Shown piece after piece: positions 1-45,634 of a stretch of 64,000 nt of DNA. Below the pieces are notes generated by a model. The model was not told the origin of the DNA, did no database searches, and worked only from the letters and a program-made list of their open reading frames with translations. A program made the translations under genes and the position numbers. The DNA lies in the NCBI RefSeq assembly GCF_000317145.1, contig NC_019697.1:3196385-3260384 (forward strand), read 5' to 3'. This DNA comes from Chamaesiphon minutus PCC 6605. GTDB lineage: Bacteria; Cyanobacteriota; Cyanobacteriia; Cyanobacteriales; Chamaesiphonaceae. Position 1 is the first letter of the stretch; each line of letters begins with the position of its first letter.

Positions 1-308
1 CGTCCGTAAAAAGTCAGGGGATTATCCCACTTCACCATGCCATTGAGACTATTTACCAGCGTGACATACCACTGGGATACTCGATCGATTTCTTCCGTTT
101 TTTCGCTCCCCAAAAAAGTCCTGACAGCGATCGCTAGTGTTAGTTTTCGCATCTCTTTTTCTAGGCTAATCGTGCCCAGCTTGCCCCAATTTGCCACTGT
201 TTCGGTGACAACCGCCTGAATCGTGTCAAAGTAAGAGGCGATCGCTTGATGATGGAACATCGGCAAAATTAGCTTCCGACTGGCGCGATGCTCTGCACCA
301 TCTTGCAA

Positions 309-343
309 CCTGAGTTCGATGAGGCTATGCCTCATCGAACTCA
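309..343. repeat. Perfect terminal hairpin at the left end of IS982 copy 1
   Basis: CTGAGTTCGATGAGGC is followed by a TAT loop and its exact complement, giving a 16 bp stem. The outer arm is the terminal inverted repeat itself, so the left end carries a second, inverted copy of the transposase target. The right end has only a shorter hairpin, GATGAGGC-TGT/ACA-GCCTCATC. Confidence 0.85.
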
Positions 344-462
344 GATGTGACAACATGTTCAGCTTAATAGCAAATTTTATGTAAATTTTGGCACGATAAA
401 ACCCATCATTAAGATGATTAATGATTGAAAATATTGAGTTAAGTTAATAAATAAATAATCGG

Positions 463-1353
463 CTAAATAGGAACAATACTAAAGAAGTTTTGAGCAGGCT
501 CATCTAGCTTCAAACTCGGCTTTTTAGGTTGATGAGTATAAGCAATTAATGCTGTAATCAGATTTAGCATGAAATTATGCAAGCTCCGATGGCGAGAATG
601 GACTAAATAACAAATATTTTTTAACTGGTCATTTACCGTTTCAATCAGCGAGCGTTTCCGAAGTGATATTTTGTCATCCATCAAGATGAGCTTGTTTTTC
701 ATATTAGATTTTAGTGGCGTAATTAGCTGCAATCCTTTATTTAATAATTCTTCAAATAGTTCTTTCTTAATATATCCTTTGTCTCCAAATATTTTTCCTG
801 ATATTCCCTGTGTCATTGATGGCAAATGTGTGCGGTCATCGACATTGCCAGGTGTGATTTTGCAGCTTAATATCTCTCCGCAATCATTAATAATTAAATG
901 AAGCTTGAATCCAAAGTACCATCCCATAGAACTCTTACTCAGCTTGGCAGTTTCTTTGAAAACCTTATTTCTTTTAATTCTTTTTGGGTGACAAACTGGA
1001 ATAGCCGTGCTATCCACGAAACTAATTCCAGTCACCTTACCTTGACGAGAGTTGAGATAATAAAGGCAAGCTATTAAAACATTTGGCATCAACTCCACCA
1101 TTCTATTGTAACTAACCAATTTTGGAAAATAATCAGTTAAGTTTTGACAAACATTTTTGAGGTAATAATCCTTAAATGTTCGATAGCTTGACTGATGGAA
1201 ATGAATAGAAATAGTCATGACCTCGCTCAGTGATAGGCCGCAGCGTTTTGGTAAGCTATTACCGTTGGCAGGGAAAGATATTGATGAAAAAGTTGCCAGC
1301 CAATCTTGGCAGAAATCATCTATTTCACAAAATAGTTCGGTTAAGTCCATCAT
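463..1353 (-). CDS. IS982-family DDE transposase (copy 1, intact)
   Basis: This 296-residue protein catalyses cut-and-paste movement of its own element. The IS982 signature is clear: FVDSTAIPVCH (first catalytic Asp, D114), the SSMGWYFGFKLH stretch, TPGNVDDR, GDKGYI (second Asp, D191) and RSLIETVNDQLKN (Glu, E238). Length matches the family (about 270-300 residues). It starts MMDLTELFCEIDDF, and either of the two adjacent Met codons could serve. Compared with copy 2 it has five T (coding strand) instead of four near codon 21 and so keeps its frame. The TIRs, target duplication and catalytic triad are all present, so the element could be active, though no activity can be shown from sequence. 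Confidence 0.93.
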   Translation of the reverse strand: MMDLTELFCEIDDFCQDWLATFSSISFPANGNSLPKRCGLSLSEVMTISIHFHQSSYRTFKDYYLKNVCQNLTDYFPKLVSYNRMVELMPNVLIACLYYLNSRQGKVTGISFVDSTAIPVCHPKRIKRNKVFKETAKLSKSSMGWYFGFKLHLIINDCGEILSCKITPGNVDDRTHLPSMTQGISGKIFGDKGYIKKELFEELLNKGLQLITPLKSNMKNKLILMDDKISLRKRSLIETVNDQLKNICYLVHSRHRSLHNFMLNLITALIAYTHQPKKPSLKLDEPAQNFFSIVPI

Positions 1354-1512
1354 CTAAGTGTGGTTTTCTAATATATATATTAATTTAACCAGAATCAGAG
1401 ATTATACATAAGGGTTGCAATGCTATTTGTACTTTTATTTGCCGACCGCTCCTCAGAACTTTTAATAACTTATTAATTGTTAATTATTTGTAATTATCGA
1501 TCGACGTTTTAC

Positions 1513-1559
1513 TTCCAAGTCATTATCAATAATCAAAGCTTATTGATAATGACTTGGAA
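1513..1559. repeat. 19 bp-stem hairpin inside IS982, upstream of the transposase
   Basis: TTCCAAGTCATTATCAATA, a 9 nt loop and the exact complement form a strong hairpin about 160 bp upstream of the transposase start. The same structure is kept in copy 2 at 4223-4269. It could limit read-through transcription into the transposase, be a small nested palindromic repeat, or be a structured RNA. Confidence 0.75.
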
Positions 1560-1944
1560 ATATCTCATTTTAATAATTGATGTTTATGACTCAAGCACAG
1601 TCAGAGACTTGATTTGATGATGAGGCACAGCCTCATCGAACTCAGGTTTGCAGCAACACCAAATCTTTACTCACGATCGGTTCTAGCGATCGATTCCCCA
1701 ATCGCGATGATAACTTGTCAGCGGCATCTTTTAACATCAATTGATTAGCCTCTGGCCCAATCAGACAAGCACATTTACCAAAGCCGAGCGCGGCTGGGAA
1801 TGATATTTTGAAAATATTGCCGTACTCTTGATACTGCTGCCAATAAAATAGCTCGTGGTTGACGAGGGCACCGATCGTGTGTCCGATGAACGGCAATCCA
1901 AAGCTCCCAGGCATCATGTCAGCGGACTTAAGTTTATCCGTCAT

Positions 1945-1981
1945 AACAACAATTTATTCCAAATTGTGACATAATTATTTT
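1945..1981. promoter_or_regulatory. Divergent promoter region between P450 and TetR-like genes
   Basis: Only 37 bp separate the two start codons, so the promoters and any TetR operator must overlap here or extend into the coding starts. The stretch is AT-rich, with the partial dyad ATTGTGACATAATTAT. No clean operator can be assigned by eye. Confidence 0.4.
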
Positions 1982-2911
1982 ATGAGTAAGTCCTCATCTT
2001 TGTCAAGTGATCGAACTCTTCGTCGCCAACCCCAGCAACAACGCGGGAAACAGCGCGTAGAGAAGATTCTCCTTGCCGCTGCGGAAGTTTTCGCCGAGGC
2101 AGGATTTGCAGCAGCCACGATCCAACAAATCGCCGATCGAGCCAATACTGCTGTCGGTTCGATTTACCAATTTTTCCCAGATAAATTAGCGATTTTCCAA
2201 GCTCTGCTTTCAGAGCACATGCAGCAGCAAGAAATCTTGGAGACAAATTTTTTTGCTGCCGATCTGAATCGCCCACTTATGCAACTGATCGGCGAATATA
2301 TCGATACCCTAGCTTGCTACTTTGAACGGCCTATTCCGCGCTGTATCGCCTTACAAGACTATTTACAGCCGATCGCTGGACTGTCTAATCTAGTTGAAGA
2401 CATGCCAGAGCAACTATCGATATCATTGAAAAGACATGCCAATTTTTATCGACAACGCAACCCTAATTTGAGCGAAGCCAAAAGTGAATTACTTACGGAA
2501 GTTGCTCACAATATGTCAAATAGCTTGTTTCTGAGTGCGCTCAAGAGTGATGCAACACACCGCCAGGAAATTTATGCCGAAATCAAGGATGTGCTCTACG
2601 GCTATCTCAATCCGCACATCGGCGACCATTTACTCCCAGTGTCTAATCAATTGATGATATGCCCCGACTGTCAGAGCGATCGAGTGGCGAAGAACGGTCG
2701 CCAGCAAGGCAAACAACGTTATATATGTAGAGGATGTGGGCGGCAATTCCTCGATCGATACACGCCTAGAGGATATCCTCTAGACGTTAGACAGAGGTGC
2801 CTCGCTCTCCATGCGCAGGGAGTCGGCTTTCGGGAAATCGAGCGTCAGACGGGGGTAGATTGCAATACGGTGATTAATTGGGTGAAAAATCTTCAAGCAC
2901 CTAGTGGGTAA
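1982..2911 (+). CDS. TetR-family regulator fused to an IS1 InsA-type zinc-finger/HTH domain
   Basis: The 309-residue protein has two parts. Residues 22-76 are a TetR DNA-binding domain (ILLAAAEVFAEAGFAAATIQQIA, then GSIYQFFPDK), and residues to about 215 form the helical ligand/dimer domain. From Met225 on it reads as the InsA protein of cyanobacterial IS1-family elements: C227-x2-C230 and C249-x2-C252 zinc knuckles, GKQRYICRGCGRQF, then the helix-turn-helix VGFREIERQTGVDCNTVINWVK, stopping soon after. No insB or transposase core follows. The gene is divergent from the P450 gene, the usual place for a TetR repressor of an oxygenase. Either the protein gained a second DNA-binding module, or an IS1 insertion was later cut down and left its first ORF in frame. 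Both domains are recognisable; function of the fusion is inference. Confidence 0.85.
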   Translation: MSKSSSLSSDRTLRRQPQQQRGKQRVEKILLAAAEVFAEAGFAAATIQQIADRANTAVGSIYQFFPDKLAIFQALLSEHMQQQEILETNFFAADLNRPLMQLIGEYIDTLACYFERPIPRCIALQDYLQPIAGLSNLVEDMPEQLSISLKRHANFYRQRNPNLSEAKSELLTEVAHNMSNSLFLSALKSDATHRQEIYAEIKDVLYGYLNPHIGDHLLPVSNQLMICPDCQSDRVAKNGRQQGKQRYICRGCGRQFLDRYTPRGYPLDVRQRCLALHAQGVGFREIERQTGVDCNTVINWVKNLQAPSG

Positions 2912-3080: not shown

Positions 3081-4134
3081 AGCTATCCATTACCCACAGA
3101 TCGTGTAATATTTGCATTTCGAATATTACACGATCTGTCCCCAAGAACCAATAACTGACTAGAGTTGAGTTAGAATCGAGTTATAAATCATCAAAAAAGA
3201 GGTCAAAAATGGAAACTTGGGTAGCATGAGAGCTAAGATATCTGTCGATGAAAGATGTGCGGCTGAAGCAGAGATTAATTACTTTAGTAGAACAACTAAG
3301 TTGTAAACCAACTGAAAGTATCCCACTGGCTTGCGGAAACTGGGCAAAGACCAAAGCTGCATATCGATTTTGGGACAATAAAAAAGTGGATTTCAACGAA
3401 ATTATTGCCGCTGGTCAATTAAGTACGCTAGACAGAATGAAAGATGAGGAAATCATCTTAGCTATTCAAGATCCAACGGATCTAGATTTTACACACCATC
3501 CACACACTCAAGGACTAGGACATCTAGAGGCAGCTTATTTACGCGGAATCAAGGTACATACAACACTAGCCGTCAGCGGTGAGGGCGTTCCCTTGGGTGT
3601 ACTAGGACAAGAAATTTGGACTAGAGATCTTGAGACAATTGGTAAAAAGCACAAAAGAAAACAGAAAGAAACTAGTGAAAAAGAAAGTCAAAGATGGTTG
3701 ACAGCCCAGCAACAAACAGTCATTAATACTCAGGGTAAACAGAAAATTATTACTGTAGCAGACCGAGCAGCAGACATTTTTGATTTATTCAGTCAAGCCA
3801 GTAATAACAATGGTGATTTTCTGATTCGTGCCTGTCATAATCGGAGAGTTGAGAGTGAGTTATCCTATCTAATTCCGACGATTGAGGCGGCACCGATTGC
3901 GGGTGAAATGAATGTGGAGATTAAGCGAAATTCTCATAGTGCCGCAAGAATTGCCAGACTCAATATTCAGTTCATGAGTATGACTATTTATCAACCAGCG
4001 AATCGGACAATTGCCCAGTCATTGCCACCAGTAACAGTCAATGTCATCTTAGCGACAGAGACTGATTTCCCGCCGTTTCTTGTGAGTGCATCTTAGAACC
4101 AGATGAATGGCAAGCTTTAGCTTGTCATCATCTA

Positions 4135-5473
4135 ACCTGAGTTCGATGAGGCTGTGCCTCATCATCAAATCAAGTCTCTGACTGTGCTTGAGTCATAAAC
4201 ATCAATTATTAAAATGAGATATTTCCAAGTCATTATCAATAAGCTTTGATTATTGATAATGACTTGGAAGTAAAACGTCGATCGATAATTACAAATAATT
4301 AACAATTAATAAGTTATTAAAAGTTCTGAGGAGCGGTCGGCAAATAAAAGTACAAATAGCATTGCAACCCTTATGTATAATCTCTGATTCTGGTTAAATT
4401 AATATATATATTAGAAAACCACACTTAGATGATGGACTTAACCGAACTATTTTGTGAAATAGATGATTTCTGCCAAGATTGGCTAGCAACTTTTCATCAA
4501 TATCTTTCCCTGCCAACGGTAATAGCTTACCAAAACGCTGCGGCCTATCACTGAGCGAGGTCATGACTATTTCTATTCATTTCCATCAGTCAAGCTATCG
4601 AACATTTAAGGATTATTACCTCAAAAATGTTTGTCAAAACTTAACTGATTATTTTCCAAAGTTGGTTAGTTACAATAGAATGGTGGAGTTGATGCCAAAT
4701 GTTTTAATAGCTTGCCTTTATTATCTCAACTCTCGTCAAGGTAAGGTGACTGGAATTAGTTTCGTGGATAGCACGGCTATTCCAGTTTGTCACCCAAAAA
4801 GAATTAAAAGAAATAAGGTTTTCAAAGAAACTGCCAAGCTGAGTAAGAGTTCTATGGGATGGTACTTTGGATTCAAGCTTCATTTAATTATTAATGATTG
4901 CGGAGAGATATTAAGCTGCAAAATCACACCTGGCAATGTCGATGACCGCACACATTTGCCATCAATGACACAGGGAATATCAGGAAAAATATTTGGAGAC
5001 AAAGGATATATTAAGAAAGAACTATTTGAAGAATTATTAAATAAAGGATTGCAGCTAATTACGCCACTAAAATCTAATATGAAAAACAAGCTCATCTTGA
5101 TGGATGACAAAATATCACTTCGGAAACGCTCGCTGATTGAAACGGTAAATGACCAGTTAAAAAATATTTGTTATTTAGTCCATTCTCGCCATCGGAGCTT
5201 GCATAATTTCATGCTAAATCTGATTACAGCATTAATTGCTTATACTCATCAACCTAAAAAGCCGAGTTTGAAGCTAGATGAGCCTGCTCAAAACTTCTTT
5301 AGTATTGTTCCTATTTAGCCGATTATTTATTTATTAACTTAACTCAATATTTTCAATCATTAATCATCTTAATGATGGGTTTTATCGTGCCAAAATTTAC
5401 ATAAAATTTGCTATTAAGCTGAACATGTTGTCACATCTGAGTTCGATGAGGCATAGCCTCATCGAACTCAGGT
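4135..5473 (+). mobile_element. IS982-family insertion sequence, copy 2 (1339 bp)
   Basis: Same element as copy 1 but in the other orientation, with ends ACCTGAGTTCGATGAGGCT at 4135 and its complement ending at 5473. It is flanked by the 5 bp direct repeat ATCTA (4130-4134 and 5474-5478). It sits inside the Tn5-like transposase remnant. It is one base shorter than copy 1 because of a T deletion in the transposase gene, with few other differences, so both insertions look recent. Confidence 0.92.
4429..5318 (+). pseudogene. IS982-family transposase (copy 2, frameshifted)
   Basis: The start ATG at 4429 matches that of copy 1, but the run of five T near codon 21 is four T here (4491-4494). The reading frame therefore ends after about 40 codons. 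The rest, from ISFPANGNSLPK to NFFSIVPI, is open in the shifted frame and keeps all three catalytic residues. A TTG at 4479 could restart translation 20 codons downstream of the original start, but no good ribosome site is seen for it. The element can probably move only with enzyme from copy 1. Confidence 0.85.
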
Positions 5474-5746: not shown

Positions 5747-6037
5747 TATAAAAGGGAGGAGAAGATTCTAGAGATTTATGCGAACTACTTTTACTTTCTA
5801 ACTGTTTCTCTTTGTGAGAATGCTATGGTAACGAGTTATGGATGATTGTAGTGCTGGATTTATTTTTGCTAGAAGAACCCGGATCTGTGGGGAGAAAATC
5901 TGCGGGTTCAGTTTTTGACGTTGCTGAATTAAGGCATGAAAACATCGGTGGGGCAATTCATAAATTGTCCCTACCGATGAGAAAGAATTCTCTGTTCGCC
6001 TGTCGCTCCCAGCCGCCCCGCCCCCGAACCAATTCTA
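5747..6037. other. Intergenic stretch with one hairpin, no gene recognised
   Basis: Between the Tn5-like element and the phosphatase gene there is no convincing coding region. Bases 5943-5981 form an imperfect hairpin (CATCGGTGGGGCAATT paired with AATTGTCCCTACCGATG) that may end transcription or be a small repeat. Confidence 0.4.
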
Positions 6038-43975: not shown

Positions 43976-45634
43976 ATGAACGAAACTTGGCAACTCATTA
44001 GTGCGGGAACCGAAACTAGTCAACTTATTGCTAAACATTGGCTGCTCGCGCAGACCACTATACCAGTCGCTACCCCAAATATTTCGACAACAGGGATTGA
44101 AAATCTGGCCAGACAAACTGGTGGCACGATCGGAGCCTATTTACCAAGCCTATTGGGCGCGATCGTGACATTATTTATCGGCTGGATCGTGGCTTTTATT
44201 GTCTCATCAGTCGTTCGCAACCTGCTCAAACGCACCGACCTAGATAACCGATTGGGTCGGATGGCAACTGGTAGCTCGAATATGAATACCGAAAAATTAG
44301 TCGGAGACATTGTGTTCTGGCTAATTTTTCTATTTGCGGTACTAGCATTTCTCAATGCACTCAATCTAACTGTTGTAGCGCAACCGCTCAACAATGTCTT
44401 AAACCAGATTCTGGCATTTATCCCCAAATTAGCATCAGCGGCAGCTTTAGCTGCGGTGGCTTGGTTGGTAGCCACCGCCGTAAAAGCGATCGTCGTGCGG
44501 ACTGCTGGCACGATCGTGCCAGCGATGTCACAGCGCATGGCTGTCGGCGACAATCAAGTCTTGCCTAGCGAAACCCTCGGCAATGCCTTGTACTGGTTCG
44601 TATTTTTATTCTTTCTACCACTGATCCTCGACGTCCTCGATCTCAGAGGCCCCTTAGCACCCGTCCAGAATCTCTTAAACGATATACTCAGCGCACTGCC
44701 AAACATCTTTAAAGCAGGTCTGATCGCTCTGGTGGGTTGGTTTGTCGCTCGGATCGTCCGCGAATTGGTGACCAATTTACTCGCTGCGGCTGGAACTGAG
44801 AGACTAGCGGCGAAGATCGGCTTAAATAGAGCCGCTCCCGGTCAATCACTATCGGGATTGTTAGGCACGATCGTCTATGTGATGATTTTAATCCCGACAG
44901 CAGTTGCCGCATTAGATGCACTGCAAATCCCGGCGATTTCTGGCCCTGCAACATCCATGCTCCAACGAGTATTGGATACCATCCCCCAAATCTTAACCGC
45001 AGCGGTAATTTTAGCGATCGCGTTTGTAGTCAGTCAGTTTGTAGGCGATTTGGTTGCCAATCTGCTTAATGGTTTGGGCTTTAATAATATCTTCCGTGCC
45101 TTGGGACTGCATACCCTGCATCAATCTACCCTCAGCGATACTCCCGTTACGCCTGTAACCGGACGCGAACTCGTGCCGCCTTCCACCAAGCAGACACCAT
45201 CAGAGATTGCGGGTTTAGTCGCTCGCGTGGGGGTGATGCTAATTGCGACAGTTGCAGCGACTGAAGTATTAGGAATTCCATCGCTCAACGATTTAGTTCA
45301 GGGATTGTTGCTCATTGCCGGACAAGTCTTAGCCGGAGTACTCGTATTTGCGATCGGTTTATTCCTGGCCAATCTCGCTCAAAGAGTCGTCAGCAGTTCT
45401 GGTACTCATCAAGCACAAATTCTCGGACAAGTAGCACGGTTAGCAATTATCGCCTTTGTCGGGGCGATGGCCTTACAGCAAATGGGCATTGCAGCTAGTA
45501 TCGTCAATTTGGCCTTCGGTCTAATGTTAGGTGCGATCGCAGTTGCCGTGGCAATCTCTTTCGGTTTGGGCGGTCGCGATGTCGCTTCCGAACAACTCCG
45601 CGACTGGTTGGCTGGTTTCCGCGACAAGCGTTAA
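43976..45634 (+). CDS. Mechanosensitive ion channel family protein (TM-helix repeats)
   Basis: 552 residues made of repeated units: each has a pore-like amphipathic helix (GAYLPSLLGAIVTLFIGWIVAFIV; LAFIPKLASAAALAAVAWLVATAV; LSALPNIFKAGLIALVGWFVARIV; LDTIPQILTAAVILAIAFVVSQFV), a charged loop and another helix. This matches the conserved TM_helix repeat of MscS-related proteins. Typical MscS beta domains are not obvious. The end FGLGGRDVASEQLRDWLAGFRDKR matches the amphipathic pore-helix and cap region in many MscS-like proteins. About ten or more membrane helices are expected. A strong terminator follows. A 3' fragment of a second copy lies at 47.2 kb. Confidence 0.88.
   Translation: MNETWQLISAGTETSQLIAKHWLLAQTTIPVATPNISTTGIENLARQTGGTIGAYLPSLLGAIVTLFIGWIVAFIVSSVVRNLLKRTDLDNRLGRMATGSSNMNTEKLVGDIVFWLIFLFAVLAFLNALNLTVVAQPLNNVLNQILAFIPKLASAAALAAVAWLVATAVKAIVVRTAGTIVPAMSQRMAVGDNQVLPSETLGNALYWFVFLFFLPLILDVLDLRGPLAPVQNLLNDILSALPNIFKAGLIALVGWFVARIVRELVTNLLAAAGTERLAAKIGLNRAAPGQSLSGLLGTIVYVMILIPTAVAALDALQIPAISGPATSMLQRVLDTIPQILTAAVILAIAFVVSQFVGDLVANLLNGLGFNNIFRALGLHTLHQSTLSDTPVTPVTGRELVPPSTKQTPSEIAGLVARVGVMLIATVAATEVLGIPSLNDLVQGLLLIAGQVLAGVLVFAIGLFLANLAQRVVSSSGTHQAQILGQVARLAIIAFVGAMALQQMGIAASIVNLAFGLMLGAIAVAVAISFGLGGRDVASEQLRDWLAGFRDKR

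Follow-up and report, generated by a model that had tools for sequence, protein, structure and literature searches.

A TetR regulator fused to an IS1 InsA-type zinc ribbon and helix-turn-helix in Cyanobacteriia, encoded divergently from oxygenase genes

TetR/AcrR repressors encoded divergently from the gene that they control share with the protein described here the TetR_N and TetR_C_15 domains, a divergent neighbour and a shared operator sequence. The protein differs from them by an added IS1-derived zinc ribbon and helix-turn-helix (HTH), which are missing from its tailless relatives L108, L111 and L163. Mce3R is a repressor with more than one DNA-binding unit per chain, a likeness to the fusion, but it doubles the TetR fold, whereas the second unit of the fusion is derived from a transposase. 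The structure of Mce3R (PDB 9b7y) matched our family profile in two stretches. IS1 InsA has its zinc ribbon and HTH in the same order as the fusion (profile positions 1-80), whereas the fusion lacks the catalytic half and, judged by the ends of the IS1 copies of its own genome, has no clear element ends around it, and its ribbon and HTH form a selected tail of a host regulator that falls in a separate clade. The CSB-PiggyBac fusion protein is eukaryotic and carries a piggyBac transposase. It reportedly joins a host protein to a transposon protein and is conserved, as is the case here (PMC2268245). PfsR (Sll1392) of Synechocystis PCC 6803 is likewise a TetR regulator from a cyanobacterium and binds to the promoter of its own gene; it differs in its length of 203 residues, too short for the tail, and in its link to iron homeostasis (PMC4092027).

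No description of a TetR-InsA fusion was found among the matches listed in the open-licence PMC literature, and in the open-licence PMC papers containing both 'TetR family' and 'zinc ribbon' the terms name separate proteins. The parts are known, and their combination is apparently undescribed in the searchable open-licence PMC papers; we file the protein with the TetR regulators, not with IS1. Its absence from the literature may be due to the InsA ribbon profile of Pfam, which misses the ribbon by 1.3 bits.

A TetR regulator with the DNA-binding half of an IS1 transposase

The window, a stretch of 64,000 nucleotides of the Chamaesiphon minutus PCC 6605 genome that was analysed as a whole, contains the fusion gene at 1982..2911 (+ strand), defined by its frame, domain matches, paralogue and orthologues. 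Open reading frame (ORF) analysis of the window yielded a single uninterrupted frame of 309 codons, encoding 309 aa, at 1982-2911, as an earlier note on this DNA had reported. The TetR_N DNA-binding domain occupies residues 29-75 (2066..2206, +; PF00440, 52.7 bits against a cut-off of 24), and the match to the TetR ligand/dimer domain covers residues 148-209 (2423..2608, +; PF17918 TetR_C_15, 38.6 bits against a cut-off of 26.8). The fused-family profile aligned with two TetR chains of solved structure, 3bni over positions 6-207 and 2oer over positions 11-208.

Beyond the TetR part, an IS1-type zinc ribbon (C-x2-C...C-x2-C) spans residues 223-258 (2648..2755, +) and is followed by an InsA-type HTH at residues 263-305 (2768..2896, +). 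The ribbon was recognised by the NCBIfam IS1/IS1595 zinc domain NF050000 (48.2 bits on the fusion protein, cut-off 28), while Pfam Zn_ribbon_InsA (PF03811) matched residues 227-252 with 24.8 bits, slightly under its cut-off of 26.1. For the HTH, the evidence is the NCBIfam IS1 transposase profile NF033558, of which positions 1-80 of 199 match residues 227-305 with 81.4 bits, a score that stays under the whole-protein cut-off of 100. Positions 81-199 of this profile, the IS1 catalytic half, were unmatched in the fusion protein; the IS1 transposase match thus covers the InsA DNA-binding half only. These matches agree with the earlier description of a TetR regulator joined to an InsA-like zinc finger and HTH. 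Nor was an insB found 3' of the fusion gene, as had been stated; a transposase-like frame (3248-4096) and then another insertion sequence (4134-5473) lie there instead.

An AlphaFold model computed from a three-sequence alignment had a mean pLDDT of 43 overall, with values of 77-86 in the HTH helices and 60-67 in the ribbon, and we regard it as poor in the TetR part and fair in the tail. Within the tail, strands were predicted at residues 235-241, 244-249 and 255-257, and three helices, which coincide with the HTH, at 267-278, 283-290 and 294-305. Among the best 60 of 159 matches to solved structures, no tailed TetR chain was noticed, and the tail alone retrieved zinc-finger and unrelated matches only.

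The InsA part also contains the perfect 18-bp palindrome noted earlier at 2766-2783, which proved exact. The window has two palindromes of this kind, where 0.26 are expected; the other lies at 44505-44522 (CTGGCACGATCGTGCCAG). In the same stretch of 12 relatives (L013, L018 and L083 are not among them), the longest perfect palindrome measured 14 bp in two, 8 bp in three and 2-6 bp in seven, while the peptide around it was largely retained (RGYP in 8 of the 12). A functional palindrome was rejected, as the feature is unconserved in these 12 relatives and its single-strand fold is ordinary (18 of 200 shuffles as good); it is taken as a codon coincidence.

Distribution, architectures and selection

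A full-length paralogue is present in the same genome (G000:C1:2266526-2267437; 60% identity over residues 1-306), and full-length orthologues with 60-79% identity occur in the genus and family, as judged from 60 related genomes. Among named records, Chamaesiphon polymorphus CCALA 037 and a Chamaesiphon MAG come closest to the window. Relatives that end right after the ribbon share 40-47% identity and belong to other families and once to the same family (L040, G009). A profile built from 16 fused proteins was run against samples of the order and class. It matched 75 of the 388 genomes of the order sample, and the alignments reached the zinc ribbon in 62 of the 84 matches listed, in 55 genomes. 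An alignment was counted as reaching the ribbon if it extended at least to profile position 254, one row (G139) being removed after its sequence was read; the profile search reads through stops, and a few of these 62 matches may be interrupted. The class sample (Cyanobacteriia) yielded matches in 79 of 388 genomes, including the 2.7-Mb genome G398 (locus L146) and four genomes also contained in the order sample, and the phylum sample in 7 of 146, all within the class Cyanobacteriia. A Synechococcus elongatus control genome matched the IS1/IS1595 zinc-domain family and gave no match to the IS1 transposase family, the combination expected of a TetR-ribbon gene. The earlier note had proposed a search for other proteins with TetR and the InsA zinc finger in the same order, and this order recurs in the paralogue, in the orthologues and across the class.

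Mobile elements were represented by two collections. The phage collection had no match at E 1e-5. The plasmid collection yielded 42 matching records, in none of which the match covered 80% of the query, and 3 among the 30 of these 42 matches listed ran from the TetR part to residue 257-259. A match on a Klebsiella plasmid (H17) was discarded, being an IS1B copy that adjoins a hypothetical gene. On plasmid2 of Calothrix sp. NIES-4101, the fusion is annotated as 'TetR family transcriptional regulator protein' and adjoins a 'putative rieske 2Fe-2S domain protein'.

We extracted 84 proteins and dropped the duplicates L061 and L063, leaving 82 rows in which the window's own copy, L145, was replaced by P0001. 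They comprise 57 proteins with TetR and ribbon, 16 with TetR, ribbon and HTH, 6 with TetR and an unrelated longer tail, and 3 with TetR alone. The ribbon is, therefore, present in 73 of the 82, and the HTH in 16 of those 73. The spacing C-x2-C/C-x2-C and its four Cys are invariant in 73/73 fused ribbons. The C-terminal end lies 0-25 residues past the ribbon in the 57 of 73 ribbon-bearing proteins that lack the HTH, and HTH-bearing relatives stop right after the HTH or some residues later. The stop directly after the HTH, taken earlier to fit a domesticated fusion and an insertion scar alike, is thus not a mark of a scar. The TetR relatives L028, L109, L110 and L159-L162 have a different second HTH-like tail, DeoR-like by eye, in place of the ribbon; L109, L110, L159 and L161, which have such unrelated tails, adjoin the same divergent Rieske cluster, and L162 a P450.

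A tail tree that leaves out identical IS1 copies and more distant IS1-type tails placed the 16 HTH-bearing fused tails in one clade, apart from 15 IS1 tails and one SWIM-linked tail (support 99/99); the branch that leads to them measures 0.5 changes per column. The IS1 tails nearest to this clade were L030, L032 and L034 (support 83/83), none of them from the window's own genome, whose IS1 tails are 45-49% identical to that of the window. In the ribbon-only tree (38 columns, 104 rows), the best topology had 4 changes and a single clade was not rejected (AU p 0.448); the ribbon alone does not settle a single origin of all fused ribbons. As the 16 ribbon-and-HTH tails form one clade, one capture followed by later trimming is favoured. 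On the TetR tree, built with a quick method, the HTH state requires 4 changes, and, therefore, repeated loss or transfer must be assumed. One capture of ribbon and HTH, then repeated HTH loss or some transfer, would be the simplest account.

Selection was estimated as dN/dS from pooled Nei-Gojobori (NG86) counts, using 16 of the 23 computed pairs so that no protein occurred in two pairs. In 11 ribbon-only pairs the pooled ratio came to 0.057 (ribbon) and 0.090 (TetR), and 5 HTH-bearing pairs gave 0.102 (ribbon), 0.159 (HTH) and 0.210 (TetR); the values are rough, because several synonymous distances are large. The maxima for single pairs were 0.188 (ribbon) and 0.248 (HTH). Pooled ratios of 0.06-0.16 over the ribbon and HTH, together with those of the TetR part, indicate that purifying selection acts on TetR, ribbon and HTH alike. 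A ratio below 1 over the InsA part, which the earlier note had named as a sign of function, is thus what the pooled pairs yield (ribbon 0.057-0.102, HTH 0.159).

Divergence was uneven along the gene. Synonymous divergence was higher in the tail than in TetR in the pairs L083/L084, L093/L095 and L080/L081, and the reverse held for the window and L013. The DNA of the latter two is about 0.9 identical at both gene ends (0.76 in the last block), whereas five of the six blocks in the sensor middle show 0.59-0.70 identity; between L013 and L075, the sensor-middle blocks are 0.79-0.92 identical. Because the ends of the window gene and L013 are alike while the middle has diverged, and because synonymous divergence differs between gene parts, the comparison points to exchange of gene parts by recombination, and the gene looks mosaic.

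The divergent oxygenase and a shared operator sequence

A divergent oxygenase lies upstream in 55 of 61 loci, the window included, as a Rieske cluster in 47 and as a P450 only in 8 (Pfam, one representative per cluster: Rieske E 3.8e-16, p450 E 5.9e-74). It is absent at the remaining 6, namely L080, L160 and L164, where contig ends are close upstream, and L081, L082 and L163, which have other neighbours. The P450 form occurs at six loci of the window's family, at L147 (ribbon and HTH, another family) and at L162 (unrelated tail), and the own-genome paralogue, L072, has retained the Rieske gene. The Rieske oxygenase is probably the ancestral partner, with P450 in the window's clade.

In the window itself, the divergent P450 is split by a 1341-bp insertion sequence (308..1648), on both sides of which 5-bp TTGCA repeats were seen by eye. 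The first 97 residues of the enzyme are encoded at 1648..1944 (- strand; open frame 1642-1944, ORF reading), where the insertion cuts them off, and the rest, from residue 97 on, at 1..305 (- strand; tblastn with the P450 of a relative), leaving the window. An inverted copy at 4134-5473 is 99.8% identical to the first, and the two flank the fusion gene. Because the adjacent P450 is split, the local circuit is probably impaired in this genome, with the frame of the regulator intact. An intact second P450 (462 aa) is located just beyond the split one. In the left part of L145 (G000:C1:3192000-3204000), P450 genes lie in tandem: one frame of 462 aa is complete, and another, at the end of this locus, is represented by its first 161 residues. 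The inverted insertion sequence copy, for its part, seems to lie inside another transposase-like gene (3248-4096, resuming after 5474 by eye).

Reading of the intergenic region and pattern scans identified a putative operator box, box 2 (TATGA-N8-TCR-NN-WWYGTCAA), at 1981..2006 (+ strand), overlapping the tetR start codon. A box 1-like sequence (AAATTGTGAC...) was read by eye at 1961..1980; it is seemingly nearer to box 2 in the window's clade than in the Rieske-linked loci, also by eye. The pattern GA-N8-TCR-NN-WWYGTCAA, composed after viewing the intergenic regions of the 61 loci, has a match in 55 of them between -300 and +60 relative to the beginning of the TetR domain and is absent there at L077, L082, L105, L160, L161 and L162. 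Outside tetR starts it matched once in 1.46 Mb, both strands considered; this match is beside the P450 of L077, with tetR about 1 kb off. Held-out loci, some of them closely related to loci from which the pattern had been derived, contained it in 20 of 21 cases, the missing locus starting at a contig end, with 0 matches outside in 0.15 Mb. In the own genome, the longer pattern was exact only at the two paralogues, and 5 one-mismatch matches were found, against 3 for a control pattern. In many loci box 2 extends over the beginning of the tetR reading frame, and coding constraint may account for part of its conservation; the box is also kept at L083, L084, L102, L104 and L106, where it lies upstream of the start codon as we read it.

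Of the 9 ribbonless loci, 6 have the operator (L108, L109, L110, L111, L159 and L163; not L160, L161 and L162), as do 49 of the 52 loci whose protein has the ribbon. Given its presence in both groups, the TetR heads are probably the part of the protein that recognises it. As the operator does not track the tail, nothing here shows that the tail reads DNA.

Proposed role of the tail and alternative explanations

The same fused protein is under selection in many cyanobacteria next to an oxygenase gene, and it is, therefore, a real fusion and no accident. We consider it likely that it is an old domesticated TetR-InsA fusion that acts as a local repressor of itself and of the divergent oxygenase, with the tail probably serving as an accessory grip. 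A TetR-family repressor would have gained a C-terminal zinc ribbon and HTH from an IS1-type InsA; many lineages would later have lost the HTH but not the ribbon, and both parts would have persisted in the window's family and in a few others. The N-terminal TetR domain is predicted to bind the conserved operator between its own gene and the divergent oxygenase gene, and the bound repressor would control both until released by a ligand, perhaps one linked to the oxygenase substrate. Judging from sequence, such binding, repression, autoregulation and ligand release are what we infer for the family. The result would be a bacterial case in which a host transcription factor captures the DNA-binding module of a transposase, which is selected across a class and then trimmed. 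A further prediction is that many cyanobacteria have such a regulator, together with its operator and an oxygenase as its target. Forms with TetR alone, with the ribbon, with ribbon and HTH, and with unrelated tails coexist, mostly with one shared operator, and the effect of adding a mobile-element domain could, therefore, be measured stepwise.

The role of the tail is the weakest step of this proposal. In TetR proteins the C-terminus points away from the N-terminal DNA heads, and so the tail would most likely make an extra DNA contact or bridge two DNA segments. That the tail provides an additional hold on DNA is the obvious first guess, because the zinc finger and HTH of InsA are both needed to bind IS1 ends (PMC12428005). 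The same requirement argues against a tail that is not a DNA-binding unit at all, and serves in metal or redox sensing or as a structural zinc knob for dimer or oligomer contact; so does the purifying selection on the HTH where it is kept. Most of the examined relatives keep the ribbon alone, which makes such a structural or sensory role a serious rival, though in our estimate a less probable one than the accessory grip. Its four invariant Cys, the nature of the partner enzymes (a Rieske iron-sulfur oxygenase or a P450) and an operator whose presence is independent of the tail speak for it as well. A bolder version of the domestication reading, which we advance tentatively and regard as rather doubtful, is a class-wide regulator family in which the TetR dimer carries the captured transposase module at its far end as an additional DNA head, bridging or looping DNA. 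Lineages would tune the regulator in several ways: the HTH would be trimmed off, a different sensor middle would be taken up while the two DNA-binding ends stay constant, and P450 would replace Rieske as the divergent oxygenase.

Two further explanations concern IS1 itself. The earlier note had weighed a domesticated fusion against a scar of an IS1 insertion, and the former is supported by the same-order relatives and the low dN/dS. A one-off scar, in which an IS1-like element entered the 3' end of tetR and left insA in frame and functionless, would explain why the tail is recognisably InsA and why insB is missing, and IS1-like elements are present in the own genome. It was nevertheless rejected as highly improbable: order and junction region are the same in the paralogue, in the genus orthologues and across the class, the tail is under purifying selection, and the HTH-bearing fused tails form a clade apart from the compared IS1 tails, the nearest of which come from other genomes. 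The fusion might instead still bind IS1 ends and act in trans on the IS1 copies of the genome as a host-borne repressor, which we deem unlikely. In favour of this, InsA acts in E. coli as a repressor of IS1 through binding to the ends of the element (PMC12428005), and in the HTH region the fused tail is similar to certain cyanobacterial IS1, such as L030. Using the ends of the IS1 copies of the own genome and 500 shuffles for each of three regions, we found a weak match at the TetR/InsA junction (6/500 shuffles as good, three regions having been tested), while similarity was no better than in shuffles in the 3' flank (292/500 as good) and the intergenic region (94/500 as good). The operator region thus offers no similarity to these IS1 ends to such a repressor, and the earlier idea that the fusion could couple a P450-linked regulator to transposon ends is not supported. 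The branch leading to the fused tails and the 45-49% identity between the IS1 tails of the own genome and the tail of the window weigh against action in trans as well.

Other joins of an IS1-type ribbon to host proteins were encountered during the searches. In the own genome, at G000:C1:766992-767771 (L011, L132, L196), such a ribbon precedes an O-methyltransferase (PF01596) in a 267-aa frame; among 194 genomes, the frame is open over the ribbon only in the own genome, and two others reach the ribbon or its edge through stops only. A SWIM zinc-finger protein (L038, G043:C33:6060-6299) carries a C-terminal IS1-type ribbon and HTH in a 426-aa frame. For its five relatives in the 194 genomes (G043 is outside the sample), no match extends past residue 332 of a query of 408 residues, and all lie before the ribbon. 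Neither of the two looks conserved in these 194-genome samples, and both were set aside as conserved fusions. Within the window, the best ungapped match to the 24-base IS1 end of the own genome lies at 5917-5940, with 5 mismatches and far from the fusion gene, and is possibly an old IS end.
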